Part shown: positions 1 to 9,932 of the stretch, piece after piece
Layout: each line of letters starts with the position of its first letter
Numbering within the stretch: the stretch's first letter is position 1
Source: a virus
Strand: one strand, 5' to 3'
Length of the DNA: 39,564 nucleotides
IMG/VR virus record: IMGVR_UViG_3300022918_000022
Coordinates: 1 to 39,564 of that record
The notes under the pieces: model-generated
What the model saw: only the letters and a program-made list of their open reading frames with translations
What the model was told of the DNA's origin: nothing
The model's database searches: none
Program-made: the position numbers and the translations under genes

Positions 1-405
1 TATATTTAATACTGGTTTAAGTTGATTAATATGAGATAAAATAAAGGCTTTATTTGCATCCAAATTACTCTCGCTGTATGCAAACCTAATTATTAATTTA
101 ACACCGCTTAAACGGGCTGTATTTAAGTCTGAGAGTATATTATTAAGATAACTCTGAGATATATTTGAATTAGTGAAATTCATCATATAATAAGTACGCC
201 AAATTAACGTTACTTTTTGATTGACTCTTAAATTTGTTAATTCAGTTTGATTAAGTGTAGTAAAACTATCACTATCTCCAGTTGTATAATAATATAAGCC
301 TCTTTCTTGATTAGCTATATTGCTAAAATCTTCAGTATAAAAAACTTGTTGTGAATATATATTTATACTGAACAATATAAAACACATTAATAATAATTTC
401 TTCAA
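1..405 (-). CDS. Secreted DUF4874-like protein, C-terminus cut off by window edge
   Basis: The first 135 residues are present and the frame is open to the left edge. I place the start at the TTG at 405-403: the frame has a stop five codons upstream, and the TTG is followed by KKLLLMCFILFSINIYSQQ, a classic Sec signal peptide of Bacteroidota. An ATG at codon 7 is the alternative. The mature part carries QERGLYYY (residues 33-40), LIWRTYY (67-73), ISQSYLNNIL (82-91) and ARLSGVKLIIRFAY (97-110), then HINQLKPVL. This series matches what I know of DUF4874, a TIM-barrel-like domain usually followed by DUF4832 in secreted, probably carbohydrate-active proteins. The catalytic region is outside the window. 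A secreted host-type enzyme is odd in a phage; it may be cargo acting on the host surface or polysaccharide. Confidence 0.75.
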   Translation of the reverse strand, partial: MKKLLLMCFILFSINIYSQQVFYTEDFSNIANQERGLYYYTTGDSDSFTTLNQTELTNLRVNQKVTLIWRTYYMMNFTNSNISQSYLNNILSDLNTARLSGVKLIIRFAYSESNLDANKAFILSHINQLKPVLNI

Positions 406-430
406 TCTATTTATTGGTTATTTAATTTAA

Positions 431-503
431 AAATACTGATAGCTCGGTTGCTTAAACCACTTTTTTCTCCCCGATTACTTTTTAAGTGACACTATCAGTA
501 TTT
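431..503 (-). ncRNA. Hairpin-bounded RNA-like element 1
   Basis: A perfect 12 bp inverted repeat (AAATACTGATAG at 431-442, CTATCAGTATTT at 492-503) encloses 49 bases that contain a second hairpin, GGTT/AACC on the minus strand. It fills the gap between the ATPase gene and the DUF4874-like gene. The loop is too long and there is no clean U-run, so it is not a simple terminator. The same design recurs throughout the left arm. Confidence 0.4.
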
Positions 504-512
504 AATTATTGT

Positions 513-1571
513 TTAGAATACAAAACTATATTCTTTTCTAGGAGTAGCTGTGATTAAATAATCTTTATGTTTAATTACAACTTGTCTTCCTTCTTTTCTT
601 TCAACATTATTTTTATTAGTAGTAACCCTAATACCTACAGAATAAGGAAATTTAACACGATCATCTTGTTGTTTATCTGTTAACTTTTCCCAAACTTCAT
701 CTTTCATATCAAGCTGAAGACCATATACAGGTAATAATGGAGATCCATTCATAGAACCTTCATACTCACATCCTGTTTTATTATGAACTGCTGTAATGGA
801 ATAATTAGAGTCATTTGTAACTCTGATATTTAAATACTTAACAGCTGATCTAGGAGATTCTTTATACATATTACATTCAGAAATAAGAGCAAAAACCATA
901 TCAACATTCGCTTCTTCAATTAGTTCAATAATTTCTTTAAACTCTTGAATGTGTTTTTTGTTCTGTAAATTTTCATTTAATATATCATCAAGCATATCAT
1001 CAGATATTCTATCAAATGTTTTCATATAATGAATACGACCTGGACGATTTATTAGATAATTACTGTATTTACTTGTTTCATTTGACGTAAACAAGAATAA
1101 TTTTTTACCCATAAACACACCGTCAAGTATACTTAAAAAGCTTTCTTGGGCATCTCTATTCTCATAAACTTTCTCAAATTCATCAATAAAAACAACTGAT
1201 TCTTGCTTAATATTAGACAAAAATGATGAGAAATCAGACCCTGAAAACTCTTCTGTAATAATAATTACAGGTAATTCAGCAAATATACAAACTTGCTTAG
1301 CTAATAAACTTTTACCAGTTCCTTTAAGACCAGTTAATCCAATTCCTAAATTCTTTTTAGAATCTTCAAATGTGTTTAAATATCTTTTAGCCAATGATTC
1401 TGTATCACCATATATTTTACTTGGCAGTGTAAAATCATCTGTTTTTTCTAAAAAATACTCTCGATTGAATTCATCGTATCTTACCAACCAGTTTCCGGCA
1501 GGTATAATTCCTTTCAAATCTTCAACATTACTCATTGAAAACTTAATAATTTTCTCTCCTATTAATACCAT
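513..1571 (-). CDS. AAA+ ATPase
   Basis: 352 residues. The Walker A motif GLKGTGKS is at 81-88, Walker B VVFIDEFEK at 126-134, a sensor-1 like FTSN at 161-164 and RPGR at 176-179, in the order and spacing of an AAA+ module. AAA+ proteins use ATP hydrolysis to remodel proteins or DNA complexes. The N-terminal 75 residues and the C-terminal 120 residues (beta-rich, ending TATPRKEYSFVF) are not recognised and probably hold the partner-binding parts. An internal ATG at codon 13 (MSNVEDLKG) could be the true start. It lies 14 bases after a 53-aa basic protein gene, so the two are likely cotranscribed. Other crAss-like phages carry AAA+ ATPases among replication genes; the exact role here cannot be read from sequence. 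Confidence 0.85.
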   Translation of the reverse strand: MVLIGEKIIKFSMSNVEDLKGIIPAGNWLVRYDEFNREYFLEKTDDFTLPSKIYGDTESLAKRYLNTFEDSKKNLGIGLTGLKGTGKSLLAKQVCIFAELPVIIITEEFSGSDFSSFLSNIKQESVVFIDEFEKVYENRDAQESFLSILDGVFMGKKLFLFTSNETSKYSNYLINRPGRIHYMKTFDRISDDMLDDILNENLQNKKHIQEFKEIIELIEEANVDMVFALISECNMYKESPRSAVKYLNIRVTNDSNYSITAVHNKTGCEYEGSMNGSPLLPVYGLQLDMKDEVWEKLTDKQQDDRVKFPYSVGIRVTTNKNNVERKEGRQVVIKHKDYLITATPRKEYSFVF

Positions 1572-1585
1572 GTTTATTAATTTGT

Positions 1586-1747
1586 TTACGCTACTAGTTT
1601 CAATGCTTTTTGAGCATCTGAATCATTTGCATTGTTTTTTAAATGTTTTAATAATCTTCTCTTTTTATTCTTTTCACGAATTCTACGAGTCAAATACATT
1701 TGACAATCTGCCTTATGTTTAGCTCTGGCTGACGCTGATTTTGCCAT
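1586..1747 (-). CDS. Small basic protein, 53 aa
   Basis: An open frame from ATG at 1747 to TAA at 1586 encodes a lysine- and arginine-rich protein beginning MAKSASARAKHKADCQ, with a dense basic stretch (RRIREKNKKRRLLKHLKNN) at residues 21-39 that would form an amphipathic helix. No fold is recognised. Such a charge pattern suits nucleic-acid binding, or binding to RNA polymerase or the ribosome, but that is inference. It sits directly upstream of the AAA+ ATPase gene on the same strand, separated by 14 bases. Confidence 0.65.
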   Translation of the reverse strand: MAKSASARAKHKADCQMYLTRRIREKNKKRRLLKHLKNNANDSDAQKALKLVA

Positions 1748-1778
1748 AATAATTGTTATTTAATTTGTTATTTATTTA

Positions 1779-1869
1779 AATACTGGTAATAACATTAGTG
1801 TTCCTACATACCAAGTTATCTTGTTTATAATTATTTTAAAATTAAATTTAGATTTGTATTACCAGTATT
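1779..1869 (-). ncRNA. Hairpin-bounded RNA-like element 2
   Basis: A perfect 13 bp inverted repeat (AATACTGGTAATA at 1779-1791, TATTACCAGTATT at 1857-1869) closes a 91-base domain between two small minus-strand genes. The left arm resembles that of element 1 (AATACTG at the start of both). The interior is AT-rich with no convincing second stem. Too long a loop for a terminator. Confidence 0.4.
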
Positions 1870-1876
1870 ATTTTAT

Positions 1877-2137
1877 CTATCTTAACTCTACTAATTCTTT
1901 TACCAAATTAATAGAGTCATTGTTGTTGTAAGTACAATACACATGTTTTAAAGAACCTAATGAGTCAATTATATAAAATTTATATCTATTATTAGGATCT
2001 TCAAATATTTTACAATTATGATATTGATTCTTAATAATTTTAATAGAATTGCTTCTTGATGGTTCATAATTGTTATTGCAACAAAAAAAACAAAAAAGCA
2101 AAAATGAACCCATTAATGCATATAGTAATTTTCTCAT
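1877..2137 (-). CDS. Small putative lipoprotein, 86 aa
   Basis: The protein starts MRKLLYALMGSFLLFCFFCC, a short positive N-terminus and a hydrophobic core ending in cysteines, as in a lipoprotein signal peptide; the mature part would begin at the cysteine near residue 20. The remainder is polar (NNNYEPSRSNS, then ILKNQYHN-like and VKELVELR) and has no recognised domain. It is downstream of a second lipoprotein-like gene (2151-2375) on the same strand. Phage lipoproteins often alter the host envelope, for example to block superinfection; that role is only a suggestion here. Confidence 0.65.
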   Translation of the reverse strand: MRKLLYALMGSFLLFCFFCCNNNYEPSRSNSIKIIKNQYHNCKIFEDPNNRYKFYIIDSLGSLKHVYCTYNNNDSINLVKELVELR

Positions 2138-2150
2138 ATTTAAATTTTAT

Positions 2151-2375
2151 TTATTTTAAAGTATCACCTATTTTATAAAGATTATTAGTGTATAAATAAG
2201 CTTCATTATTTATTTCCGCTACATATGAATACTCATCTTGAGAATAAAAATTCGTATCATTAACTCTAATACTAGTTATAATTAAAAAATCTGATATTCT
2301 ACATTTACAACTACAACAAAATATTAACAAAAGAATTGCTAATGCTAAATATATTAAACAGTTTCTATTTTTCAT
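2151..2375 (-). CDS. Small putative lipoprotein or membrane protein, 74 aa
   Basis: The N-terminus has KNR followed by a long hydrophobic run (LIYLALAILLLIFCCSCKC, about residues 8-26) ending in several cysteines, which suits a lipobox or a membrane anchor. The mature portion (IITSIRVNDTNFYSQDEYSYVAEINNEAYLYT) looks like a small beta domain. It ends DTLK, and a related ending, GDTIQ, appears in the lipoprotein at 8008-8277, whose mature part also has LYKKGDT; this gene has LYKIGDT. The two may be distant paralogues. Its start overlaps the end of the upstream gene by 11 bases. Confidence 0.65.
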   Translation of the reverse strand: MKNRNCLIYLALAILLLIFCCSCKCRISDFLIITSIRVNDTNFYSQDEYSYVAEINNEAYLYTNNLYKIGDTLK

Positions 2376-2634
2376 TTATCGGTATTTTTCTTAATTCTTT
2401 TAATTTTTCTCTAGATTTTTGCCTTACGCAGTATTCTAACCAATATTGTTTATTAGTTGGTTTAAATTTCAATATTAATAGTAATATTTCTTTAAATTCA
2501 CTTGGTAAGTAATAAGCTAGTTTTGGTTGTTCATGCAATATATCCATCCATGAATCTAATGTTTTATTAACTCTTTGCAATAAATACATTAACACAATAA
2601 TAGATATTAGCGATATTGAAAATATTGTTACCAT
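2365..2634 (-). CDS. Small single-pass membrane protein, 89 aa
   Basis: A hydrophobic segment at the very N-terminus (TIFSISLISIIVLMYLLQ, residues 3-20) is followed by a polar, charged tail of about 65 residues rich in lysine and leucine (KFKPTNKQYWLEYCVRQKSR). The topology would be N-terminal anchor with a cytoplasmic or periplasmic tail. No family recognised. It is the first gene after the RNA/tRNA block at 2666-3206, with a 31-base AT-rich leader, and its end overlaps the next gene. Confidence 0.6.
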   Translation of the reverse strand: MVTIFSISLISIIVLMYLLQRVNKTLDSWMDILHEQPKLAYYLPSEFKEILLLILKFKPTNKQYWLEYCVRQKSREKLKELRKIPINEK

Positions 2635-2665
2635 ATTATATTTTTTATTTTTTATTTTAAAATTA

Positions 2666-2808
2666 AACTCTCTAATTCTGCCACCTTAACTAAATTTTAA
2701 ATATTATTTAGTCGCGTATATTGGACTCGAACCAATGACCATCCCGGTATCAGCGGGATACTCTACCACCTGAGCTAATACGCTAATAGTTTGCAATTTA
2801 AGAGAGTT
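2666..2808 (-). ncRNA. Tandem RNA element A, enclosing the tRNA
   Basis: The closing stem is AACTCTCT (2666-2673) with AGAGAGTT (2801-2808). Read on the minus strand, the 5' arm is followed by TAAATTGCAAAC and the 3' arm is preceded by TTAAGGTGGCAGAATT. Equivalent motifs stand in the same places in elements B, C and D. The interior is the complete tRNA-Ile gene plus about 35 AT-rich bases. So the tRNA occupies the place of the variable central part of the other elements. Confidence 0.55.
2712..2784 (-). tRNA. tRNA-Ile (anticodon GAT)
   Basis: On the minus strand from 2784 to 2712 (73 nt, no encoded CCA): acceptor AGCGTAT/ATACGCG, D-stem GCTC/GAGT with AGGTGGTA loop, anticodon stem TCCCG/CGGGA with loop CTGATAC (anticodon GAT), variable loop TGGTC, T-stem ATTGG/CCAAT with TTCGAGT loop, discriminator A. 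All invariant positions are present. One oddity: position 1 is A and position 72 is G, so the terminal acceptor pair is a mismatch. It would decode ATC and ATT. It is the only clear tRNA in the window. Confidence 0.9.
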
Positions 2809-2814
2809 ATGAGT

Positions 2815-2921
2815 TTGCCTAATAGTCTGTTACTTTATAATTATTTAAATCTACTCCATACACTTAGTGGTTATGGGTATTTCTATCATTTATAAATAGA
2901 TCATTACAATTCATTAGGCAA
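2815..2921 (-). ncRNA. Tandem RNA element B
   Basis: Closed by a perfect 9 bp repeat, TTGCCTAAT (2815-2823) and ATTAGGCAA (2913-2921). On the minus strand the 5' arm is followed by GAATTGTAATG and the 3' arm is preceded by TAAAGTAACAGACT, the same two-sided motif as in A, C and D. The interior forms ATCTA/TAGAT and, inside it, CCATA/TATGG around ACCACTAAGTG. No open frame of note. Confidence 0.55.
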
Positions 2922-2928
2922 TATAAAT

Positions 2929-3046
2929 TATTGCTTAGAATTCTGTTACTTTATTTAATACTTGTTAAGCTAACTGAATTCAACTATACAACAAGACCGT
3001 TACTAATTCAAATCAATGCTATTAAATCACAATTTACTAAGCAATA
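2929..3046 (-). ncRNA. Tandem RNA element C
   Basis: Closed by a perfect 10 bp repeat, TATTGCTTAG (2929-2938) and CTAAGCAATA (3037-3046). Minus strand: the 5' arm is followed by TAAATTGTGATT, the 3' arm is preceded by TAAAGTAACAGAATT. The 3' motif TAAAGTAACAGA is identical to that of element B, while the arms and interior differ, as expected if the motif and not the stem sequence is under selection. Confidence 0.55.
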
Positions 3047-3053
3047 TATTTTA

Positions 3054-3206
3054 AACCTTTAAATTTCTGCAACCTTTTGTTATTGTATTATTTCGTCCTG
3101 CACACTGAGGATGTATTGAAATATAATCTCGCTAGCAAATTGTATTTACTCAAACCTTCTTAGGCGGGCTAGATAACTAATAACAATCGCAACTGATTTA
3201 AAGGTT
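3054..3206 (-). ncRNA. Tandem RNA element D
   Basis: Closed by a perfect 11 bp repeat, AACCTTTAAAT (3054-3064) and ATTTAAAGGTT (3196-3206). Minus strand: 5' arm followed by CAGTTGCGATTG, 3' arm preceded by AAAAGGTTGCAGAA. Inside, TTGTTATT pairs with AATAACAA directly next to the motif, and further stems CTAGC/GCTAG and TCCT/AGGA follow, giving a multi-branched fold. It begins five bases after the stop codon of the gene at 3212-3373. Confidence 0.55.
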
Positions 3207-3211
3207 GTGTT

Positions 3212-3373
3212 TTAATAATTTTCCATTATATAATCTATCAATGAAAAAGAAATATATAATACACTGAATCCAAATATTAAGTATAATAATGGAGATAAGA
3301 TTAATTCAATCATAGCCAATGGAAGCCAAATTAAACATAATAATATTATCCGTAATCTGTATAATATGTTCAT
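3212..3373 (-). CDS. Small hydrophobic membrane protein, 53 aa
   Basis: ATG at 3373 to TAA at 3212. Almost the whole protein is hydrophobic: MNILYRLRIILLCLIWLPLA, then MIELILSPLLYLIFGFSVLY and ISFSLIDYIMENY, enough for two membrane segments with a positively charged N-terminus (YRLR). No family recognised. It lies two bases after the upstream lipoprotein gene (3376-3648) and directly before RNA element D, so it is the last protein gene before the RNA block. Confidence 0.6.
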   Translation of the reverse strand: MNILYRLRIILLCLIWLPLAMIELILSPLLYLIFGFSVLYISFSLIDYIMENY

Positions 3374-3375
3374 AA

Positions 3376-3648
3376 TTATTTAGGTTTTATATATTCTTTT
3401 TTAGATACTGGTTCATATAATTGATCACCAGTAATAACTATTGGAACTATTATTGTTTCAATTAATAATGCACTCCAAATAACATTTATAGTACTAACCT
3501 TATAGTTAATACTGTCGTGTTTCATTTCAGGATTAAACCAACCATATGGTTCAACCCTAACTTCTTTTCCATCAATATTAAATTTCTTACTATCTGCACA
3601 TGATATAAATAATAAACTTAATAGCAATATAAATAGTATTTTTTTCAT
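3376..3648 (-). CDS. Small putative lipoprotein, 90 aa
   Basis: The N-terminus MKKILFILLLSLLFISCADSK has a textbook lipobox (LFISC, cysteine at about residue 17), followed by a serine-aspartate start of the mature protein that suits Bacteroidota surface lipoproteins poorly or well depending on sorting rules I cannot test. A second hydrophobic stretch (WSALLIETIIVPIVITG, about residues 58-74) could cross the membrane. No domain recognised. Part of a run of small envelope proteins (3651-3866, 3376-3648, 3212-3373). Confidence 0.65.
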   Translation of the reverse strand: MKKILFILLLSLLFISCADSKKFNIDGKEVRVEPYGWFNPEMKHDSINYKVSTINVIWSALLIETIIVPIVITGDQLYEPVSKKEYIKPK

Positions 3649-3650
3649 AA

Positions 3651-3866
3651 TTATTTATTTCTTTGGTTGTTAAATTCAATGTGTAAAACTCTACTACTAT
3701 CAAAATAACCTTTTAAAGTATCATTTGGAGTAATTAGTTTATACTCTTCTGGTAAATCTATTTTACAAGATTCTTTTTTATTTTTTTCTTCAATACTTGT
3801 AGCTCCTAATATGTAGAATATTAAAGCTATCATTATATTTAAAAATACATGTGTAAATGGATTCAT
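3651..3866 (-). CDS. Small membrane-anchored protein, 71 aa
   Basis: A hydrophobic N-terminal segment (VFLNIMIALIFYILGAT, residues 7-23) is followed by a charged linker (EEKNKKESCK) and a short C-terminal part (LPEEYKLITPNDTLKGYFDSS) that reads like a small beta domain. No family recognised. Its start codon is preceded on the minus strand by TAACTAACTAAC 15 bases upstream, the leader motif found before several genes of this arm. Two bases separate it from the next lipoprotein gene. Confidence 0.6.
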   Translation of the reverse strand: MNPFTHVFLNIMIALIFYILGATSIEEKNKKESCKIDLPEEYKLITPNDTLKGYFDSSRVLHIEFNNQRNK

Positions 3867-3881
3867 AATATTTTATAATTA

Positions 3882-3893
3882 AGTTAGTTAGTT
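3882..3893 (-). promoter_or_regulatory. ACTAACTAA leader motif before 3651-3866
   Basis: Minus-strand TAACTAACTAAC, ending 15 bases before the ATG. This copy also places a TAA in all three frames. One of a series of near-identical leader motifs (see 6438, 6555, 7992, 8288, 8962 and, on the plus strand, 32048). Confidence 0.4.
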
Positions 3894-3984
3894 AATAAAA
3901 ACTCCCGATATATTTCAACCGGGAGTTAATCTTTATCAATAATTTAATTCACTAAATTTACTGATTTAAAATAAGAACTATTTC

Positions 3985-4689
3985 TTATTCTTCATTCAAT
4001 GCTCCAGCTAACATGTTGTTCGCACTAGCTTTTGCACCTGTTTTTGTTCTTTCTGATTCCAATACTTTATCAGCAACCAATACATCAGTTGCATCACCGT
4101 ATTGCAAATCAAACACGCGGTAAACAGTGTTACCTAATTGATCTGTGATTCTCTCAGAATCTTCACCACCTGTTTGCAAGATGTAACGTTCTTTGATTGA
4201 ATCGTCAACGTCAGGGTCTTGTAATTGTGTACGTACTGATTTTGGAAGTTGTTCCACATCAACAGTTTCACGACATACAATTTTAACCGGTTGAAGAATA
4301 CCATTTACTGATACTTCAGTAACAGCAGAGAACAATGCTACACGCTCATCATCAGCCAATGTTTTACACATTTCAGCGATTTTACCAAAGTTCAATGCAT
4401 TACCTTCGTTATCTTTCGCATTTGGAAATAGCTCAGTAAAACCTTCTTCGTTTGCAATGAACCATACACGCATTGTTGTACGTCCTGAATTGAAACGTGC
4501 ATCACCTTTATTAGCCAAAGCCAATAAACTTGCTTTACGTCCAGCCAATCCTCTTGATTGACAGAATTCAAATTCAATTTGTCCACCTTTAACCGCTCTT
4601 GCAGCTACGATGAAAACTGTAGTTTCTGGTAGTTGACCTACCAATTTCATGACACTTTTTTTAATAGTGTCCATTTTCAACTTTTTCAT
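3985..4689 (-). CDS. Highly expressed-looking 234-aa protein with acidic tail
   Basis: Not recognised with confidence. Its codons use C and G at third positions far more than the neighbouring small genes (CGC, GTA, CGT, GGT, GAA), which suggests selection for strong expression. It has a lysine-rich start (MKKLKMDTIKKS), a central mixed alpha/beta region (FEFCQSRGLAGRKASLLAL at about 37-55; TTMRVWFIANEEGF at about 70-83) and a short acidic C-terminus (NNMLAGALNEE). An abundant protein with an acidic tail in a replication arm could be a single-stranded-DNA-binding protein, but I see no clear OB-fold signature; treat that as a guess. A second, shorter reading frame inside it (4392-4586) is a shadow. 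Confidence 0.8.
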   Translation of the reverse strand: MKKLKMDTIKKSVMKLVGQLPETTVFIVAARAVKGGQIEFEFCQSRGLAGRKASLLALANKGDARFNSGRTTMRVWFIANEEGFTELFPNAKDNEGNALNFGKIAEMCKTLADDERVALFSAVTEVSVNGILQPVKIVCRETVDVEQLPKSVRTQLQDPDVDDSIKERYILQTGGEDSERITDQLGNTVYRVFDLQYGDATDVLVADKVLESERTKTGAKASANNMLAGALNEE

Positions 4690-4773
4690 AATATTGATAT
4701 TTAATTTATTGCTTTACCCTGACAGCAATTAGATTAAACGATTAAAATACTCAAGGGATATTATAATTTTATT

Positions 4774-4920
4774 TTACTTAACTTCTTCAGTTGATTGTAA
4801 TTTACAATCCGGATATAATGTTTCGAATTTACCAATTGCTTGATCTTCATCTTTACCAGATGATTGAGCTGAATTTTTTCTTCCTAAATGGTCTTTGTAA
4901 TTGATTTTAAAGTTTTTCAT
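4774..4920 (-). CDS. Small hydrophilic protein, 48 aa
   Basis: ATG at 4920 to TAA at 4774; MKNFKINYKDHLGRKNSAQS, then SGKDEDQAIGKFETLYPDCK and a short acidic end (TEEVK). It contains no membrane segment. No family recognised. The leader on the minus strand has TTAAACTAAAACTAATTAAA, a looser version of the ACTAACTAAA leader. It precedes the 234-aa gene by 84 bases and probably shares its transcript; a possible promoter for both lies at 5032-5061. Confidence 0.6.
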   Translation of the reverse strand: MKNFKINYKDHLGRKNSAQSSGKDEDQAIGKFETLYPDCKLQSTEEVK

Positions 4921-4955
4921 AATATTTAATTTTAATTAGTTTTAGTTTAATAATA

Positions 4956-5156
4956 AATAAACTATATTATAAGATTTACTTCTATTTAAATAATAATATA
5001 GACATTGATATAATAATTATATCTTTGACCACAAAATTATTTATTAGTGTATAGTTTCAAAGGTTTAGAAAATTAAGATGGCTGGACTGTCATATGAACC
5101 AGCAAAACGTTTTGTATTTATTAACATCTTAATTATCACTCATAATATAGTTTATT
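4956..5156 (-). ncRNA. Hairpin-bounded RNA-like element E (cloverleaf-like)
   Basis: A perfect 15 bp repeat, AATAAACTATATTAT (4956-4970) and ATAATATAGTTTATT (5142-5156), closes 201 bases. Inside, on the minus strand, stand three hairpins in a row: AATTAAGATG/CATCTTAATT (with an inner GCTGG/CCAGC), CTTTGA/TCAAAG, and the palindrome GATATAATTATTATATC. The 3' side has AGAAGTAAATC before the closing arm, a weak match to the AAGTAACAGA motif of elements A-D. No coding potential. Confidence 0.45.
5032..5061 (-). promoter_or_regulatory. Possible Bacteroidota-type promoter, leftward
   Basis: On the minus strand TTTG is followed after 18 bases by TAATTTTG, fitting TTTG-N19-TAnnTTTG except for one base of spacing. 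It lies inside element E and would drive the genes at 4774-4920 and 3985-4689. It overlaps the CTTTGA/TCAAAG hairpin, so one of the two readings may be chance. Confidence 0.3.
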
Positions 5157-5226
5157 ATATTTAATCTCTCATTGGGACTTTGTTTAATAACTCTCAAGGT
5201 TTATCATAACATTTCCAGATACAAGA

Positions 5227-5343
5227 TTAAGAGTTAATAGCCTCACTTGCAGCTCTAGCTAATTTGGTTAATTTAAATTCTTTTCTTACTAGTCTTTTAA
5301 TTGCTTTTGATTTGTTTTTAATCTTCTTTAGTTTTAGTTTCAT
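5227..5343 (-). CDS. Small basic protein, 38 aa
   Basis: ATG at 5343 to TAA at 5227. The product (MKLKLKKIKNKSKAIKRLVR, then KEFKLTKLARAASEAINS) is strongly basic and helical, with a 26-base overlap into the end of the upstream gene, typical of translationally coupled phage genes. No family recognised. It resembles in charge, not sequence, the 53-aa basic protein at 1586-1747. Being short and lysine-rich in AT-rich DNA, it could be a chance frame, though the length of the open frame and the good start favour a gene. Confidence 0.45.
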   Translation of the reverse strand: MKLKLKKIKNKSKAIKRLVRKEFKLTKLARAASEAINS

Positions 5344-5518
5344 TCTGTTTTTCTTCGATAAATTTCTTTAATGTAATAATTCCTTTTGATTCTTCTTGTT
5401 TGTAACAATTTACTTCTTCTTGTTCCTCGTAATCATCTTTAAATATAAAATAGAATAAAGCAATTATTAATACTATTTCAATAATAAAAATTAAATTGAT
5501 AATTTCATCTATTTTCAT
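5318..5518 (-). CDS. Small single-pass membrane protein with acidic tail, 66 aa
   Basis: A hydrophobic segment (IINLIFIIEIVLIIALFYFIF, about residues 6-26, written here as a single helix) is followed by an acidic tail (KDDYEEQEEVNCYKQEE) and a lysine/glutamate-rich end (EEKQNETKTKED). An N-terminal anchor with a soluble tail is the predicted topology. No family recognised. The next gene (5227-5343) starts within its last nine codons. Confidence 0.6.
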   Translation of the reverse strand: MKIDEIINLIFIIEIVLIIALFYFIFKDDYEEQEEVNCYKQEESKGIITLKKFIEEKQNETKTKED

Positions 5519-5548
5519 GTTTGTTTGTTTTAGTTTAATTGTTAAAAA

Positions 5549-5614
5549 TAACTATTGTAATAGTTGCTGATGCTACCTTATTCATTTCTGAAATATCTTC
5601 TATTACAATAGTTA
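5549..5614 (-). ncRNA. Hairpin-bounded RNA-like element F
   Basis: A perfect 15 bp stem, TAACTATTGTAATAG (5549-5563) and CTATTACAATAGTTA (5600-5614), closes a 36-base interior. On the minus strand the 3' arm is preceded by AATAAGGTAGCATCAGCAA, which contains the TAAGGT part of the A-D motif. Its arms share 12 bases with those of element K, 1 kb away. Confidence 0.5.
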
Positions 5615-5618
5615 AAAT

Positions 5619-5747
5619 AAAACTCTTATAAGGTTGAGCCTTAAGGTATTCTGATGAATTAATACATTTTATTTCTATTAACTAATTGAGTTATCATCTC
5701 AAAAACTGGATAATAGATAATAATACCTCCTATTGGATAAGAGTTTT
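5619..5747 (-). ncRNA. Hairpin-bounded RNA-like element G
   Basis: Perfect 11 bp closing stem, AAAACTCTTAT (5619-5629) and ATAAGAGTTTT (5737-5747). Minus-strand interior: TTGAG/CTCAA hairpin, the palindrome CCTTAAGG next to the 3' arm, and AGGAGG near the 5' arm, which looks like a Shine-Dalgarno sequence but has no ATG and open frame behind it. Four bases separate it from F and one from H. Confidence 0.45.
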
Positions 5748-5748
5748 A

Positions 5749-5884
5749 AAAACTTCTAATAGCTCTACACCGTTAGTCTTATATGTGTACAGTTCCTGTC
5801 TATAAGGCTCTTAGACCCATGTGTAGAAATAACATAGTTTTAACATATTCAGGGCTGGAATGTGACACCTGTATTAGAAGTTTT
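5749..5884 (-). ncRNA. Hairpin-bounded RNA-like element H
   Basis: Perfect 13 bp closing stem, AAAACTTCTAATA (5749-5761) and TATTAGAAGTTTT (5872-5884). On the minus strand the interior holds CAGG/CCTG, then CTACAC/GTGTAG enclosing CTTATA/TATAAG, itself enclosing ACAG-GAA-CTGT. At least five nested or adjacent helices in 136 bases is hard to explain by base composition alone. No open frame. Confidence 0.5.
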
Positions 5885-5951
5885 CTATATATTCAATTAC
5901 TAATCATCTAAGATGGTGTTACGAATTGATAAGCTCACACATATTTAATAA

Positions 5952-5998
5952 AAATCAGCTTATTCTATAACTGCGGGATTACGACACTTATCTGATTT
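5952..5998 (-). ncRNA. Short stem-loop I1
   Basis: AAATCAG (5952-5958) pairs with CTGATTT (5992-5998). An alternative pairing uses ATAAGCT (5929-5935) with AGCTTAT (5957-5963), so the region 5900-6000 may switch between two folds. A CATCT/AGATG hairpin lies just to the left (about 5904-5914). Weaker than its neighbours. Confidence 0.25.
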
Positions 5999-6052
5999 CA
6001 TTCATTTAGGCTTTCGGCTTAATTTGAACTCAAGTTTTTATCCATAGATTTT

Positions 6053-6140
6053 AAATATACCACATATAATCTATTTCAGGATATAATTGTACTTCTTACA
6101 TAGCCCAAGTTTCTTAAACTCTGATCAATGTAGTATATTT
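6053..6140 (-). ncRNA. Hairpin-bounded RNA-like element I2
   Basis: AAATATACCACAT (6053-6065) faces ATGTAGTATATTT (6128-6140). Twelve of 13 positions are Watson-Crick; the odd pair is C with A on the plus strand but G with U on the minus strand, so only a minus-strand transcript forms a continuous stem. Interior: AGTTT/AAACT hairpin on the minus strand. This gives direction to the whole series. Confidence 0.45.
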
Positions 6141-6148
6141 ATATTTTA

Positions 6149-6290
6149 AAAACATCACGTAGTTTAGTCTACTTTAGGAATATGTTAACTCACCCAATGT
6201 AACTGATTTGAGTTAATATCCACAGTCTCATTTTATATATATTACAACCAATATCAAACTGAGTAAGTTGGAAGCTTTATGTGATGTTTT
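6149..6290 (-). ncRNA. Hairpin-bounded RNA-like element J
   Basis: Perfect 10 bp stem, AAAACATCAC (6149-6158) and GTGATGTTTT (6281-6290); the second arm reaches into the stop codon of the upstream gene (6289-6426). Minus-strand interior: an 8 bp hairpin TTAACTCA/TGAGTTAA, and CCTAAAGTAGACTAAACTAC before the 3' arm, again with an AAAGTA core as in B and C. Confidence 0.45.
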
Positions 6291-6426
6291 ATTTACATTT
6301 TGATTCATCCTTACCACATCTTTTACATCTATACCTATCAGGTTTTCCATTTTGATGATATTCTGATGGTTCAAATTCTGTGTGTGGACAAATAAATATA
6401 TTTTTAATTAATTTAAATATATTCAT
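6289..6426 (-). CDS. Small zinc-ribbon-like protein, 45 aa
   Basis: ATG at 6426 to TAA at 6289. A short hydrophobic start (MNIFKLIKNIFI) leads into CPH at residues 13-15, and near the end YRCKRCGKDESKC provides a CxxC pair plus a further cysteine. With the early Cys and His this makes a plausible four-ligand zinc site. Hosts and phages of the Bacteroidota often have such 'MxxxF..F..CxH.....YRCKxCGK' mini-proteins; the function is unknown. The ACTAACTAAA leader motif stands 11 bases before the start. Its stop codon overlaps the closing arm of RNA element J. Confidence 0.65.
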   Translation of the reverse strand: MNIFKLIKNIFICPHTEFEPSEYHQNGKPDRYRCKRCGKDESKCK

Positions 6427-6437
6427 AATTTATTTAG

Positions 6438-6448
6438 TTTAGTTAGTT
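6438..6448 (-). promoter_or_regulatory. ACTAACTAAA leader motif before 6289-6426
   Basis: Minus-strand AACTAACTAAA, 11 bases before the ATG. Same sequence and nearly the same spacing as at 6555, 7992, 8288 and 8962. Confidence 0.45.
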
Positions 6449-6543
6449 TAATCTTCAAATACATCTATTCCCATAAAAGCTAAAGGAATACATATAATTA
6501 TAAATCCTATATATAATAGAATTATTTCTAATTTATCTTTCAT
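6448..6543 (-). CDS. Tiny membrane protein, 31 aa
   Basis: ATG at 6543 to TAA at 6448. MKDKLEIILLYIGFIIICIP then LAFMGIDVFED: one predicted membrane helix with a charged N-terminus and an acidic C-terminus. Too short for family assignment. The case for a real gene rests on the ACTAACTAAA leader 11 bases upstream and on its neat fit between the zinc-ribbon-like gene and RNA element K. Confidence 0.5.
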   Translation of the reverse strand: MKDKLEIILLYIGFIIICIPLAFMGIDVFED

Positions 6544-6554
6544 AATGTTGATTA

Positions 6555-6565
6555 TTTAGTTAGTT
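6555..6565 (-). promoter_or_regulatory. ACTAACTAAA leader motif before 6448-6543
   Basis: Minus-strand AACTAACTAAA, 11 bases before the ATG of the 31-aa gene. Confidence 0.45.
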
Positions 6566-6573
6566 TAAAAATA

Positions 6574-6651
6574 AAACTATTGTAATCTCACCTTAGCTGA
6601 GTTAATGTAAATACACGTCTAGGAGAACATTACATATTATTACAATAGTTT
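6574..6651 (-). ncRNA. Hairpin-bounded RNA-like element K
   Basis: Perfect 13 bp stem, AAACTATTGTAAT (6574-6586) and ATTACAATAGTTT (6639-6651), around a second stem TAATGT/ACATTA (6603-6608, 6627-6632). Minus strand: GCTAAGGTGAG before the 3' arm. The arms match those of element F over 12 bases. Confidence 0.5.
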
Positions 6652-6659
6652 ATAAAATA

Positions 6660-6746
6660 AAATCATTACCTTAAATACCGTGTTTATACCTGCCGGTGCT
6701 ATATTAAATATAGTAGTATAATTCTTTATATTGTTTGCAATGATTT
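6660..6746 (-). ncRNA. Hairpin-bounded RNA-like element L
   Basis: 8 bp stem, AAATCATT (6660-6667) and AATGATTT (6739-6746). Minus strand: the 5' arm runs into TTGCAAACAATAT, matching the TTGCAAAC of element A, and the 3' arm is preceded by TTTAAGGT, matching TTAAGGT of A. Inside is a CTATAT/ATATAG hairpin. Confidence 0.4.
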
Positions 6747-6754
6747 ATAAGAAT

Positions 6755-6844
6755 AAAACACATTAGTTTTGAACGTGATTAAATATATTCGTCTCAGACC
6801 CTATGTTGTTGCCTCAAAATATATTTAATCTGCTAATGTGTTTT
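6755..6844 (-). ncRNA. Hairpin-bounded RNA-like element M
   Basis: Two perfect stacked stems: AAAACACATTAG/CTAATGTGTTTT (6755-6766, 6833-6844; 12 bp) and inside it GATTAAATATATT/AATATATTTAATC (6777-6789, 6818-6830; 13 bp), with an asymmetric internal loop (2 bases against 10) and a 28-base apical loop. The most stable single domain of the series. It lies just downstream of the methyltransferase gene on the same strand. Confidence 0.5.
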
Positions 6845-6881
6845 AACTGGATAGTTCTTTGAAATACCAAACCAGTGTTAA

Positions 6882-7427
6882 TTATACTTTAAAACAAAGA
6901 TCGTAATCATCATTAAATGTGAAATAATCTCTTGGCTCAATTAAATCAAGCCAATGATTTAATGGTAATAATCTTTCATCTCCAAAGCTTGGAACTAAGT
7001 ATTTATCTAAAGGAACATAATGAATAGATCCTCTAAATTTACTCGTAATTAATTTAATTTGTTTATCACTAAAGTGTTCTAATACACCATGACTTACACC
7101 TGTTACGTCACATGGATAATTTGTGTTAAATATGTCGCCTTGAATAAATAATTCAGCATTAACATTTCTATTTGCTAAATCAACCATATTTTGTGATAAA
7201 TCAATACCGTAACAGTTAAAATTGTGTTTAAGTAAATATTTACTTACTGAACCAATTCCACATCCCAATTCAAATAAAGTCTTTTCGGACATAAATGGAT
7301 TAGATTGGTGTTTTATAATATATTCTAAGAAGAGTTGATATCTCTTTTCAAAATAATCTTGATAAGAAGAGTTGATACGTTTTTCATAAAAACTCTTCCA
7401 ATCATTAGTTTGTTCAATTGCGATCAC
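6882..7427 (-). CDS. Class I SAM-dependent methyltransferase
   Basis: 181 residues. Motif I ELGCGIG (53-59) binds S-adenosylmethionine, the acidic residue after strand 2 is D76 in YGIDLSQ, GDIF (97-100) is the motif II region, and GVSHGVLEHFSD (110-121) resembles motif IV of small-molecule or protein methyltransferases (methyltransf_25/11 types). It lacks the NPPY/DPPY signatures of adenine-N6 or the PC motif of cytosine-C5 DNA methylases. The C-terminal third (HYVPLDKYLVPSFGDERLL) would form the substrate lid. The frame starts with GTG at 7427; no nearby ATG gives a complete N-terminal helix. Substrate unknown. It stands alone among tiny genes. Confidence 0.85.
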   Translation of the reverse strand: MIAIEQTNDWKSFYEKRINSSYQDYFEKRYQLFLEYIIKHQSNPFMSEKTLFELGCGIGSVSKYLLKHNFNCYGIDLSQNMVDLANRNVNAELFIQGDIFNTNYPCDVTGVSHGVLEHFSDKQIKLITSKFRGSIHYVPLDKYLVPSFGDERLLPLNHWLDLIEPRDYFTFNDDYDLCFKV

Positions 7428-7442
7428 TTATTAATTAATTTA

Positions 7443-7628
7443 TTAGTTAGGTGAAATAGCAAATATTAATGCTATTGATGAGTTCTCACAATCTATACAA
7501 AATAAATCATCCGATAGATAATTTAATTCTTTTATTAGATTGAATTTTACTTCTTTTTTTCGATCTTTATCAAGATAAACAGTGTCTATTTTGATAACTT
7601 TTGTTTTAATTTGTATTAAATCAGGCAT
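7443..7628 (-). CDS. Hypothetical protein, 61 aa
   Basis: A hydrophilic N-terminal half (PDLIQIKTKVIKIDTVYLDKD, about residues 2-20 in a beta-like pattern, then RKKEVKFNLIKELNYL) and a more hydrophobic end (CIDCENSSIALIFAISPN) with a CxxC pair. No family recognised. Start ATG at 7628, eight bases after the upstream gene; it ends 15 bases before the methyltransferase start, so these genes are probably cotranscribed. Confidence 0.55.
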   Translation of the reverse strand: MPDLIQIKTKVIKIDTVYLDKDRKKEVKFNLIKELNYLSDDLFCIDCENSSIALIFAISPN

Positions 7629-7636
7629 AATATTAA

Positions 7637-7981
7637 TTATTCAAATGAAAATTCAGGTGGATTTGTTGATCCCTTATGTCCTGATTTAAATTTAATTGAT
7701 ATTCTTGGTCTTTTATCTTTTCTATAAGATTCAAATTCAGTTCTTAATTTAACATAATCCTCTACTTTGCAGTATTCAGGATTTAATTTAAATAAAGATT
7801 TTATTTCCTCAAATACTTCATTTGTTTTAGAAATATCTGATAATGTGAATCCAACTGAGTTAAATGATTGTTCGTCATCGTAATTATAATCTTCAGTTGA
7901 ACCGTAAAAATTAAATGTTGTAACATCAATGTCTACTTTAATTGTATTAAATGAGTTGCAAAATAGTTTTAGAATTGGCAT
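7637..7981 (-). CDS. Hypothetical protein, 114 aa
   Basis: A soluble protein without signal or membrane segments. The first half alternates hydrophobic and polar residues (ILKLFCNSFNTIKVDIDVTT) as in beta strands; the middle has FEEIKSLFKLNPEYCKVEDY in helical pattern; the end is basic (RKDKRPRISIKFKSGHKG). No family recognised. The ACTAACTAAA leader lies 10 bases before the start. Confidence 0.65.
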   Translation of the reverse strand: MPILKLFCNSFNTIKVDIDVTTFNFYGSTEDYNYDDEQSFNSVGFTLSDISKTNEVFEEIKSLFKLNPEYCKVEDYVKLRTEFESYRKDKRPRISIKFKSGHKGSTNPPEFSFE

Positions 7982-7991
7982 GATATTTAAG

Positions 7992-8002
7992 TTTAGTTAG
8001 TT
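7992..8002 (-). promoter_or_regulatory. ACTAACTAAA leader motif before 7637-7981
   Basis: Minus-strand AACTAACTAAA, 10 bases before the ATG; flanked by CTTAAATATC exactly as CTTAAAAAAA flanks the copy at 8288. Confidence 0.5.
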
Positions 8003-8007
8003 GTTAT

Positions 8008-8277
8008 TTATTTAATATCTTCTACAATAGCTGATCTATATGTTAAATATTCAGTAACTGTATCTAATTTAGTTTCAGACCAGTTATTGTCTATTTCCCA
8101 TAATCCAGATAGTTTTCTAAATACTATTTGAATAGTATCGCCCTTTTTGTAAAGATCGTTGTGGTTAAAAACTGATATTTTTTCATTAGTTTTAATTGAT
8201 TTGACAGATAATGTGTTGTTACACGATGTTAATAATATTAATGATAATACTATTAATAGTGATTTAATTGTTTTCAT
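8008..8277 (-). CDS. Small putative lipoprotein, 89 aa
   Basis: MKTIKSLLIVLSLILLTSCN is a clear lipoprotein signal (lipobox LLTSC, cysteine 19), followed by a 70-residue mature domain with HNDLYKKGDTIQIVFRKLSG, a beta-barrel-like pattern. LYKKGDT resembles LYKIGDT in the protein at 2151-2375. No named family. Such a protein would sit on the inner or outer membrane of the infected cell; surface exclusion of other phages is one possible role. Confidence 0.7.
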   Translation of the reverse strand: MKTIKSLLIVLSLILLTSCNNTLSVKSIKTNEKISVFNHNDLYKKGDTIQIVFRKLSGLWEIDNNWSETKLDTVTEYLTYRSAIVEDIK

Positions 8278-8287
8278 TTTTTTTAAG

Positions 8288-8298
8288 TTTAGTTAGTT
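8288..8298 (-). promoter_or_regulatory. ACTAACTAAA leader motif before 8008-8277
   Basis: Minus-strand AACTAACTAAA, 10 bases before the ATG, in a 27-base gap between two genes. Confidence 0.5.
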
Positions 8299-8304
8299 GT
8301 CAAA

Positions 8305-8520
8305 TTAATCTGATGAACATCCTGCAATACAATGCCAAGAATCTGGATCTTTCATTGGTAATACTCCAACAAAATTACCATTCATTGCATCAGCATCTTG
8401 TTTGTTTTGTGTTGAAGATATTGATTTTATTTTTAGTATTTCAATATTTATTAGATTTCCAATTGAATTTTGTACTTCATTTGGATTATTTGTTTCTATT
8501 TTTATGTAAACTGTTTCCAT
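8305..8520 (-). CDS. Hypothetical protein, 71 aa
   Basis: Begins METVYIKIETNNPNEVQNSI, continues NLINIEILKIKSISS, and ends with a cysteine-containing segment (SWHCIAGCSSD). The beta-alpha-beta pattern at the N-terminus resembles a small ferredoxin-like fold, but that is only a pattern. No family recognised. The leader contains TCTAACTAAA directly before ATG, a shifted version of the leader motif. A plus-strand frame across it (8268-8525) is a shadow. Confidence 0.6.
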   Translation of the reverse strand: METVYIKIETNNPNEVQNSIGNLINIEILKIKSISSTQNKQDADAMNGNFVGVLPMKDPDSWHCIAGCSSD

Positions 8521-8645
8521 TTTAGTTAGAATTAAGTTGTTAAATTAGATATGCAATTGTAGATTTTATTGCTTTTTTGTTCAAAGTACTTTGTGTTTCA
8601 AAGTGTAATTGTTGTTTAACCCTTATAAACACTGACTTTTTTCAA

Positions 8646-8840
8646 TTATTTTTCATCAAATTCAAAGAAAAACTCATCAATTGTAATAAACTTATCACCA
8701 CTACACATTAGATTTAAACAACCCAATGTAAATACTAGTAATAACTTACTAAACCAGTTAAATAATGCCTTAGAAACGCTGTAAACAGCTAATAATAATA
8801 CTACAAGCACCATTATTAAGTTAATCTTAATCATTTTCAT
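8646..8840 (-). CDS. Small membrane protein, 64 aa
   Basis: Two hydrophobic segments (INLIMVLVVLLLAVYSV at about 6-22; LLLVFTLGCLNLMCSG at about 34-49) and a polar acidic end (FITIDEFFFEFDEK). The segments could form a hairpin through the membrane. No family recognised. Its ATG overlaps the stop of the upstream 37-aa gene as ATGA, a sign of translational coupling. Confidence 0.55.
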   Translation of the reverse strand: MKMIKINLIMVLVVLLLAVYSVSKALFNWFSKLLLVFTLGCLNLMCSGDKFITIDEFFFEFDEK

Positions 8841-8950
8841 TTGTCTAAGTTTTTAATCATTAAATAAAATACATAAAGCAAAAAAGCTAGAAGTATAACA
8901 ACTGTTGTCACACAAGCTCCAAGTAATATTTCAATAAATAATTCTTTCAT
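8837..8950 (-). CDS. Tiny membrane protein, 37 aa
   Basis: ATG at 8950 to TGA at 8837. MKELFIEILLGACVTTVVIL and LAFLLYVFYLMIKNLDK form a single long hydrophobic helix with charged ends. It overlaps the next gene by four bases (ATGA) and has the ACTAACTAAA leader 11 bases upstream, which together make a real gene likely despite the size. Confidence 0.55.
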   Translation of the reverse strand: MKELFIEILLGACVTTVVILLAFLLYVFYLMIKNLDK

Positions 8951-8961
8951 TTTAATTATGT

Positions 8962-8972
8962 TTTAGTTAGTT
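8962..8972 (-). promoter_or_regulatory. ACTAACTAAA leader motif before 8837-8950
   Basis: Minus-strand AACTAACTAAA, 11 bases before the ATG. Confidence 0.45.
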
Positions 8973-9000
8973 GAATAATCTCTATTATAGAGAGTAATAA

Positions 9001-9072
9001 TTATGCGAGCTAATAAGCCAGTTATCTCTGGAACGCAATGTTGAGGTATTATTTCTAATTAAACTCGCATAA
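9001..9072 (-). ncRNA. Hairpin-bounded RNA-like element N1
   Basis: Perfect 9 bp stem, TTATGCGAG (9001-9009) and CTCGCATAA (9064-9072), with a CCAG-AGATAA-CTGG hairpin inside on the minus strand. The stem is more GC-rich than its surroundings. Confidence 0.4.
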
Positions 9073-9215
9073 CATTACCATTGCCAATATCTCCCGATAT
9101 AGTTAATTAAAACCAAGGCATTTGTATTTTATCTGAGTAATCTAGTATAAGAGCCATTGACAGGATTATACCAGACTAGCATCAGAAGATTTTATAATTA
9201 AATAGTAATCATTAA

Positions 9216-9279
9216 GTTAAGCAAAGAGTGTTGATCAGACCAGGAACTAATCCTTATGTCACAACACTCAATACTTAAC
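9216..9279 (-). ncRNA. Two-step stem-loop N3
   Basis: Outer stem GTTAAG/CTTAAC (9216-9221, 9274-9279) and inner stem GAGTGTTG/CAACACTC (9226-9233, 9262-9269) with a 28-base loop. An alternative outer pairing uses ATTAAGTT (9211-9218) with AACTTAAT (9293-9300). Confidence 0.4.
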
Positions 9280-9343
9280 AAAGTCTAACTAAAACTTAAT
9301 TATCATGTTTGCAAGGCAATGCACAATACAAACAAAATAGTAA

Positions 9344-9373
9344 CCTGATGTAATATTCACTACGTACATCAGG
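9344..9373 (-). ncRNA. Stem-loop N5
   Basis: CCTGATGTA (9344-9352) pairs with TACATCAGG (9365-9373) around a 12-base loop. No U-run follows on either strand, so it is not a standard terminator. Confidence 0.35.
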
Positions 9374-9436
9374 CTCGATCAGAGTATTAATACTCAAAGA
9401 AATATAAATAAATAAAGAAAGATCTAAGTAAAAAGT

Positions 9437-9516
9437 AATAATCATCTAATTACGAAGTGACCGAATTTTCCCTAGTAAACTAGATTTACGGATTGAACGC
9501 TTATTATATGATTATT
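9437..9516 (-). ncRNA. Hairpin-bounded RNA-like element N7
   Basis: Perfect 9 bp stem, AATAATCAT (9437-9445) and ATGATTATT (9508-9516), enclosing CTAG-TAAA-CTAG (about 9472-9483) flanked by CCG/CGG. Same architecture as elements A to M. Confidence 0.4.
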
Positions 9517-9544
9517 TCTCTAACAGTGTAACCTGTAATTAACC

Positions 9545-9568
9545 GAATAGGAGCTATAAGCTCCATTC
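9545..9568 (-). terminator. Hairpin over the 3' end of the 59-aa gene
   Basis: GAAT-GGAGCT pairs with AGCTCC-ATTC (9545-9555 with 9559-9568, one bulged base), and the stop codon TAG lies in and beside the loop. No run of T follows on the minus strand, so it may act as an RNA 3'-end stabiliser or pause site more than as an intrinsic terminator. Confidence 0.35.
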
Positions 9569-9733
9569 GATACTATCAACAAGTTCATCATCGACTTCGA
9601 TGGTGTCATCTTGTTTTTTCAATTTGACTGTCGACAAGAAGGCTTTCTTGTTCGTTTCACCGTGAGGTGTTACAATCATTGCCCAGAAGCCGGCTTTGCC
9701 GTCTCCTGCTGCTTTTACTTTAAACTTTGCCAT
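9554..9733 (-). CDS. Small protein with high-expression codon use, 59 aa
   Basis: ATG at 9733 to TAG at 9554. The product starts MAKFKVKAAGDGKAGFWAMI and reads like a compact beta protein (VTPHGETNKKAFLSTVKL, then acidic VDDELVDSIEWS). GC content is clearly above that of all neighbours, with codons such as CTG-like TTG, GTC, GGC, GCC, which together with the first position in the leftward arm suggests very strong, early expression. No family recognised. A plausible role is a host-takeover or DNA/RNA-binding protein, by position only. Confidence 0.75.
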   Translation of the reverse strand: MAKFKVKAAGDGKAGFWAMIVTPHGETNKKAFLSTVKLKKQDDTIEVDDELVDSIEWSL

Positions 9734-9932
9734 GATAATGGGATTTTTTAGTTAAACATAAGCGGGGTATATCCCCAATTTTTTACGGCAGGGTGGATGA
9801 TTGGTGGATTATAACGCATATATACTTAAAAACAAAAAATTAAAAAAAAATTAAAAATAAAAAATTTTGTTAAAACATTTGCAAGTAAATTTTATTTATA
9901 TAACTTTGTGAAAATCAATTAAAATAAATAAT
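9734..9932. promoter_or_regulatory. Divergent intergenic control region
   Basis: The only place where the leftward and rightward arms face away from each other. It contains a long A-rich tract (about 9829-9870) ahead of the rightward promoter at 9878-9908. No clear leftward TTTG/TAnnTTTG pair was found for the 59-aa gene, so its promoter may be of another type. Confidence 0.5.
9878..9908 (+). promoter_or_regulatory. Bacteroidota-type promoter, rightward
   Basis: TTTG at 9878-9881 and TAACTTTG at 9901-9908, separated by 19 bases: an exact fit to the -33/-7 consensus of the Bacteroides primary sigma factor (TTTG-N19-TAnnTTTG). It stands 24 bases before the ATG at 9933. Confidence 0.75.

Follow-up and report, generated by a model that had tools for sequence, protein, structure and literature searches.

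What occupies the 541 nt between two small genes on the minus strand of this phage (3206-2666), and does it work as RNA? The window, by which we mean the whole stretch of DNA analysed, is the entire virus record (39.6 kb). Homology identifies it as a crAss-like phage, its MCP (45%), portal (about 42%) and TerL (38-39%) matching those of Steigviridae or crAss001-type phages; judged by these proteins, with portal, terminase and capsid closest to Steigviridae such as crAss001, the phage is placed in the Crassvirales, near the Steigviridae. Up to about 9 kb most genes are on the minus strand, and beyond that point most are on the plus strand. The array is co-directional with its flanking genes and with the tRNA it contains, and lies in a run of small ORFs, mostly membrane- or lipoprotein-like, between a 53-aa ORF (stop at 3212) and an 89-aa ORF (start at 2634). 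At the end of this gene run an ATPase (phrog_2376) is encoded on the minus strand (1571-513), with its best INPHARED homologues (about 28-40%) found in many non-crAss-like phages.

A preliminary description of this DNA had claimed four tandem RNA domains with a shared two-sided internal loop, one of them enclosing a tRNA. We found all four stem-closed domains, with arms and motifs at the positions claimed (Table 1). They stand back-to-back in the transcript order D, C, B, A, measure 105-153 nt and are joined by linkers of 7-8 nt. The two facing motifs of the proposed loop are indeed kept, but they do not bound one open loop: they form a covarying UUGY:RCAG helix followed by a 1x6 joint. As an observation, the description is thereby confirmed and sharpened; its reading as RNA is well supported, and the interpretation built on it is partly supported.

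Table 1. Coordinates of the array, its cargo and neighbouring features. Positions are those of the window unless a locus of a relative (L068, L052) is named; the two arms of a stem are separated by a slash.
Feature	Position	Strand	Details
Module D, first in the transcript	3206-3054	-	P1 of 11 bp, AACCTTTAAAT/ATTTAAAGGTT, 3206-3196/3064-3054
Module D motifs	3194-3187 (5'); 3076-3066 (3')	-	5' AGTTGCGA; 3' AAGGTTGCAGA
Module D P3		-	TTGTTATT/AATAACAA (RNA letters UUGUUAUU/AAUAACAA, register shifted by one); interior 110 nt, hairpin-rich
Module C	3046-2929	-	P1 of 10 bp, TATTGCTTAG/CTAAGCAATA, 3046-3037/2938-2929
Module C motifs	3034-3027 (5'); 2952-2942 (3')	-	5' AATTGTGA; 3' AAAGTAACAGA
Module C P3		-	ATTTAATA/TATTAAAT (RNA letters AUUUAAUA/UAUUAAAU)
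Module B	2920-2816 (2921..2815 with outside base)	-	P1 TTGCCTAAT/ATTAGGCAA, 9 bp counting the base outside
Module B motifs	2911-2904 (5'); 2836-2826 (3')	-	5' AATTGTAA; 3' AAAGTAACAGA
Module B P3		-	ATGAT/ATTAT (AUGAU/AUUAU)
Module A, last in the transcript	2808-2666	-	P1 of 8 bp, AACTCTCT/AGAGAGTT, 2808-2801/2673-2666
Module A motifs	2798-2791 (5'); 2687-2677 (3')	-	5' AATTGCAA; 3' AAGGTGGCAGA
Module A P3		-	AACTA/TAGTT (AACUA/UAGUU); tRNA inside, then a hairpin competing with P3
tRNA-Ile, anticodon GAT (GAU)	2784-2711	-	inside module A; no encoded CCA; ARAGORN
53-aa membrane-type ORF	3212..3373	-	stop 5 nt before module D
89-aa ORF	2365..2634	-	ATG 31 nt after module A; distant G001 homologue (32%)
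Further stem-closed domains	6845-6754, 6651-6574, 6290-6149, 6141-6052, 5884-5749, 5748-5618, 5614-5549	-	
X1	L068:9769-9863 with L052:2634-2541		
X2	L068:10813-11012 with L052:189-1		

Read from the outside inwards, the core consists of the closing stem P1 (8-11 bp), a loop of about 4x4, the helix P2 (UUGY:RCAG) flanked by purine mismatches, a 1x6 joint in which R faces AARGUD, and an inner stem P3; inside P1 the strands run xxAR-UUGY-R-... and ...-AARGUD-RCAG-A. Every module, including a fifth, E, from a related phage, pairs UUGY with RCAG; at the last pair, A, D and E have C-G and B and C have U-A. A complementary P3 abuts the core in five of five, and one family descriptor (P1 of at least 7 bp, ARUUGYRA facing AARGUDRCAGA, UUGY:RCAG paired, P3 abutting the joint) fits A, B, C, D and E alike. 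The interiors of A-D, 67-110 nt long, are different in each module and mutually unrelated while the core is kept, so that 19 motif positions persist around unrelated stems and interiors. In an alignment of A-E with hand-trimmed rows, N replacing the interiors and module D padded with N, every one of the 84 pair cells scored holds a standard pair and 13 of the 17 pairs show changes on both sides, a figure to be read with the P1 arms in mind, which are mostly unrelated between modules and whose covariation just reflects the perfect inverted repeat in each. When the partners are shifted by 1-3 columns, pairing falls to about 51% or less. The arms of B and C are homologous (83% over 24 nt), with compensatory differences. 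Predicted ensembles form P1 and P2 in every one of the five modules and P3 in C and D only; in A, B and E, P3 faces competing pairings.

Could such an array arise by chance, as weak AT-rich inverted repeats embellished with motifs picked by eye? The region has a GC content of 24%, and chance alone readily produces inverted repeats of 8-10 bp. We therefore scanned 20 Mb of Markov-1 sequence of matched composition for a P1 of at least 7 bp with both motifs, and obtained 0 matches at one motif mismatch or fewer and 2 at two or fewer, against 4 at 0 mismatches within 541 nt of the window, a count that is post hoc in that the motifs were derived from A-D. Because the motifs were read off A-D themselves, the test that counts is the independent case offered by a related phage, G001 (contig IMGVR_UViG_3300020045_007739).

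G001 is the closest relative covering the region (TerL 76% identity) and is collinear with the window. It holds exactly one module, E (core L068:12551-12664), and the consensus had been derived without it. Module E is closed by an 11-bp P1 (AAAGCTCTTGA/TCAAGAGCTTT), carries the motifs AGUUGCAA and AAAGUAGCAGA with zero mismatches, has a joint in which R is A and faces the 6-nt AAAGUA, as predicted, and has a 6-bp P3 (AUUAUA/UAUAAU) whose register is the one that A-D predict. The search of related phages thus yielded a match with both motifs exact, and the A-E pairs covary, as the proposal of a structured RNA had anticipated. With the consensus recurring exactly in G001, and none found in the matched random sequence at one mismatch or fewer, we find the chance explanation scarcely credible. 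In G001 the homologue of ORF 4689-3985 stands just upstream of module E; the window array lies several ORFs further on in the same operon. Directly upstream of E stands a short hairpin, AATAACCTC-TTGTAATTATATGA-GAGGTTATT, with a loop that resembles the E 5' motif TTGCAATTATA; it is possibly a collapsed module.

How widely is the family spread? Descriptor scans found no further core in 12 complete or near-complete crAss-like genomes (crAss001, phi14:2, cr106, cr108, DAC15, G003, G007, G009, G010, G013, G014 and G016). About 80 loci from other relatives (TerL 38-61%) likewise yielded none; absence there is only partly tested, since many of the loci miss the syntenic stretch. A second contig with 76% TerL identity, L052, stops short of the array region. 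When the ATPase, a 234-aa protein, the MCP and TerL were used to look for close relatives, G001 was the one informative contig obtained; a scan of genome contigs gave one remote TerL. Scanning IMG/VR for both facing motifs returned matches that a script check assigned to coding sequence, chance or the 5' ends of downstream tRNAs; a pattern with a tandem junction gave no further copy, the matches again being coding, chance or tRNA 5' ends, and the combination of T-arm and 3' motif recovered G001 only. By blastn against INPHARED we obtained tRNA matches only. An A-like blast match in L265 was rejected as a module, being a tRNA on the other strand. A covariance model of A-D with interiors removed missed even its own members, their long insert, a variable interior of 67-110 nt, being unbridgeable by the model. 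On present data, the family appears restricted to the window's own lineage, with two phages so far. Of the proposal of an undescribed, repeat-built RNA of Bacteroidota phages, what stands is that the RNA is structured, modular, absent from Rfam and carried by a crAss-like phage; its breadth appears to shrink to two phages of one lineage so far, and the tandem array is seen in the window only, G001 having a single copy.

The cargo of module A is a complete tRNA-Ile, as had been claimed: ARAGORN calls it, and the interior fits the tRNA model RF00005 at 60.7 bits (gathering score 29). The interior of module E fits the same model at 37.0 bits, with ARAGORN calling a 6-nt anticodon loop. Since this core encloses a tRNA in a second phage as well, the association is not a one-off, and the notion of an RNA carrying a tRNA holds for module A and for G001. 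The cargo of B, C and D consists of hairpins other than tRNA, with no tRNA or tRNA remnant detected by ARAGORN or by cmscan at E<=5. Neither is a clamp around tRNAs a general habit of these phages, because the repeats flanking 359 tRNAs in the loci of relatives come close to shuffled pairing. A Hammerhead_1 match of 15 bits, below its gathering score of 34, falls inside the module A tRNA.

On which nucleic acid, then, would the array act? P2 contains an invariant U.G pair, which on the other strand would read A.C and which points to the minus strand as that of the RNA. The same pair weighs on a DNA-level explanation, according to which folded strands or protein sites would serve replication, recombination or packaging and the tRNA would be incidental. 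Integron attC sites are tandem imperfect inverted repeats of variable length with conserved unpaired positions, and the array resembles them in all these respects; its perfect inverted repeats, its tandem arrangement and the different position of the module in G001 would suit a DNA element. However, the A-E core lies inside a stem and not at attC-type R/L boxes, the U.G fits RNA of one strand only, and tRNA cargo occurs on that strand twice, co-directional with the genes. The evidence favours RNA, and we regard a DNA element as quite improbable.

The operon of the array is also rich in stem-closed noncoding domains without the A-E core, at least seven of them between 6845 and 5549 on the minus strand, with arms of 10-15 bp. 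Perfect inverted repeats of at least 12 bp number 8 in positions 1-9930 against 0.6 expected, and 1 against 1.5 in the rest of the window. One of the domains, e6 (5884-5749), has a homologue at L052:364-204 (TerL 76%): the closing stems are perfect but different, and the interior words ACAGGTG, CAGCCCTGAATA and TATAAGACTAA are conserved. Judged by this conservation, e6 is a probable second RNA family shared by the window and L052. Two intercistronic structured elements, X1 (88% identical) and X2, are common to G001 and L052. Rfam returned nothing for the window stretch of extra domains and tRNAs only for the G001 stretch. These comparisons show A-D to belong to a lineage with many predicted structured intercistronic RNAs.

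Several further observations concern these stretches. Domains 6651-6574 and 5614-5549 have a common arm, ACTATTGTAAT; in the list of seven (6845-6754 to 5614-5549), the first and second last-named are unlike in sequence. G001 encodes another tRNA, missed by ARAGORN, at L068:9247-9314 (48.8 bits), and its X3 stretch of structure ends in a tRNA-like T arm, AGAGTTCGAATCTCT. In G003, a tRNA-Asn at L084:14078-14189 has its acceptor stem prolonged into a perfect 22-bp helix, and perfect inverted repeats of at least 12 bp number 13 against 0.8 expected. A 28-nt word from the 6790-6750 region of the window (TATATTTAATCAYGTTCAAAACTAATGT) recurs at 96% in a distant relative (TerL 39%) at L272:305-278, directly before a tRNA-Glu.

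The main rival to a separate RNA function is a pure processing signal: cis-acting sites of RNase III type that would cut or protect the mRNA, the tRNA being merely co-processed. In the early mRNA of phage T7, RNase III processing signals are intercistronic irregular hairpins with asymmetric internal loops. A-D resemble them in being intercistronic irregular hairpins, with long stems and an asymmetric joint; a stop codon immediately precedes the array and a start codon follows it, and other gaps of the same operon also hold stem-closed domains. Yet RNase III sites require no common sequence, whereas here the 19 positions are kept and the motif is preserved on both strands of the joint; A-D also differ from the T7 signals in their tRNA cargo and their long interiors, which at 67-110 nt far exceed the needs of a processing hairpin. 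We consider such processing sites a real but rather doubtful alternative.

Our best reading of the sequences is instead that A-E constitute a family of RNA modules specific to one lineage, which would be transcribed together and would clamp a cargo, sometimes a tRNA. It is directly supported by the pairing and covariation, the core kept around unrelated cargos, the second tRNA and the intercistronic, co-directional position. The modules would be transcribed as part of a minus-strand polycistronic mRNA, and the core (P1 clamp, UUGY:RCAG helix and 1x6 joint) would hold the ends of a variable cargo together. One protein or nuclease might read the common core, or the core might fold by itself; each module would be present as a discrete stable RNA or be cut out to become one, after which RNase P and a 3' nuclease would trim a tRNA cargo. 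That the array comprises four homologous structured-RNA modules between two small ORFs, whose core is a recognition or stability element allowing discrete stable RNAs, strikes us as about an even call. The 3' strand of P3 in module A can pair with its 5' strand or with the base of the hairpin directly after the tRNA, and we speculate that this alternative could couple module opening to tRNA release.

The core also bears a likeness to the D arm of tRNA, the spacing of U-N-RCAG-A and R-UUGY-R corresponding to tRNA positions 8, 10-14 and 21-26; the 5' ends of several downstream tRNAs are exact matches to the 3' motif AARGTDRCAGA. The halves stand in permuted order, however, and the resemblance is structural and was noticed post hoc; a permuted-tRNA reading of the modules was rejected, as the core has neither acceptor nor T arm. 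A bolder idea is that about a dozen stem-closed RNA modules, belonging to several families, occupy the gaps of one operon in this lineage, and that A-E are a cargo clamp imitating the D arm, so that a tRNA-binding factor would recognise, and mature or protect, any cargo; we think this a long shot.

Are the modules part of a known RNA? With the 4227 models of Rfam, the whole window gave only tRNA above threshold and no ribozyme, riboswitch or intron match; over 2600-3300 at E<=5, we obtained tRNA and a weak snoRNA-type match only, and no GOLLD or ROOL. The array matching tRNA alone, its RNA is undescribed in Rfam, as had been suspected, and we found no published account of the A-E family in the literature searched. 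A-E look like a real, undescribed RNA family, new to both.

The array could alternatively be one ornate RNA of ~540 nt, with A-D assembling together in the manner of GOLLD or ROOL and the tRNA attached. Back-to-back domains on 7-8-nt linkers would suit such an RNA, and some GOLLD RNAs carry tRNAs covalently in a linker (PMC12286853). We saw no conserved inter-module contacts, there is no GOLLD or ROOL match even at permissive E-values, and G001 has a single module. Given that lone module and the lack of an Rfam match, a single GOLLD-like particle is the less likely form, and we judge it unlikely.

A lineage-specific family of cargo-clamping modules would nevertheless stand close to these RNAs. 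Like GOLLD, the modules are phage-encoded, noncoding, structured and near tRNAs, and module A has a covalent tRNA in common with some GOLLD RNAs; unlike GOLLD, which is one RNA, often >800 nt, whose 3' region is universally conserved, they are units of 105-153 nt with a small common core. ROOL, a structured RNA of phages and prophages whose function is unknown, often lies near tRNA islands (PMC12286853). The modules share with ROOL the phage or prophage origin, the structure and the nearness to tRNAs, and differ from it in size, in their modular architecture and in A-E having no Rfam match. The finding flags a crAss-like lineage with a minus-strand operon unusually rich in predicted structured noncoding RNA absent from libraries. 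To our knowledge, the jobs of GOLLD and ROOL are still unknown. At ~105-153 nt, and occurring singly or in tandem, with or without a tRNA, such a module lends itself far better than an RNA of 800 nt to probing, mutation and structure determination, and would allow a direct test of whether tRNAs are carried or matured by phage RNA scaffolds.
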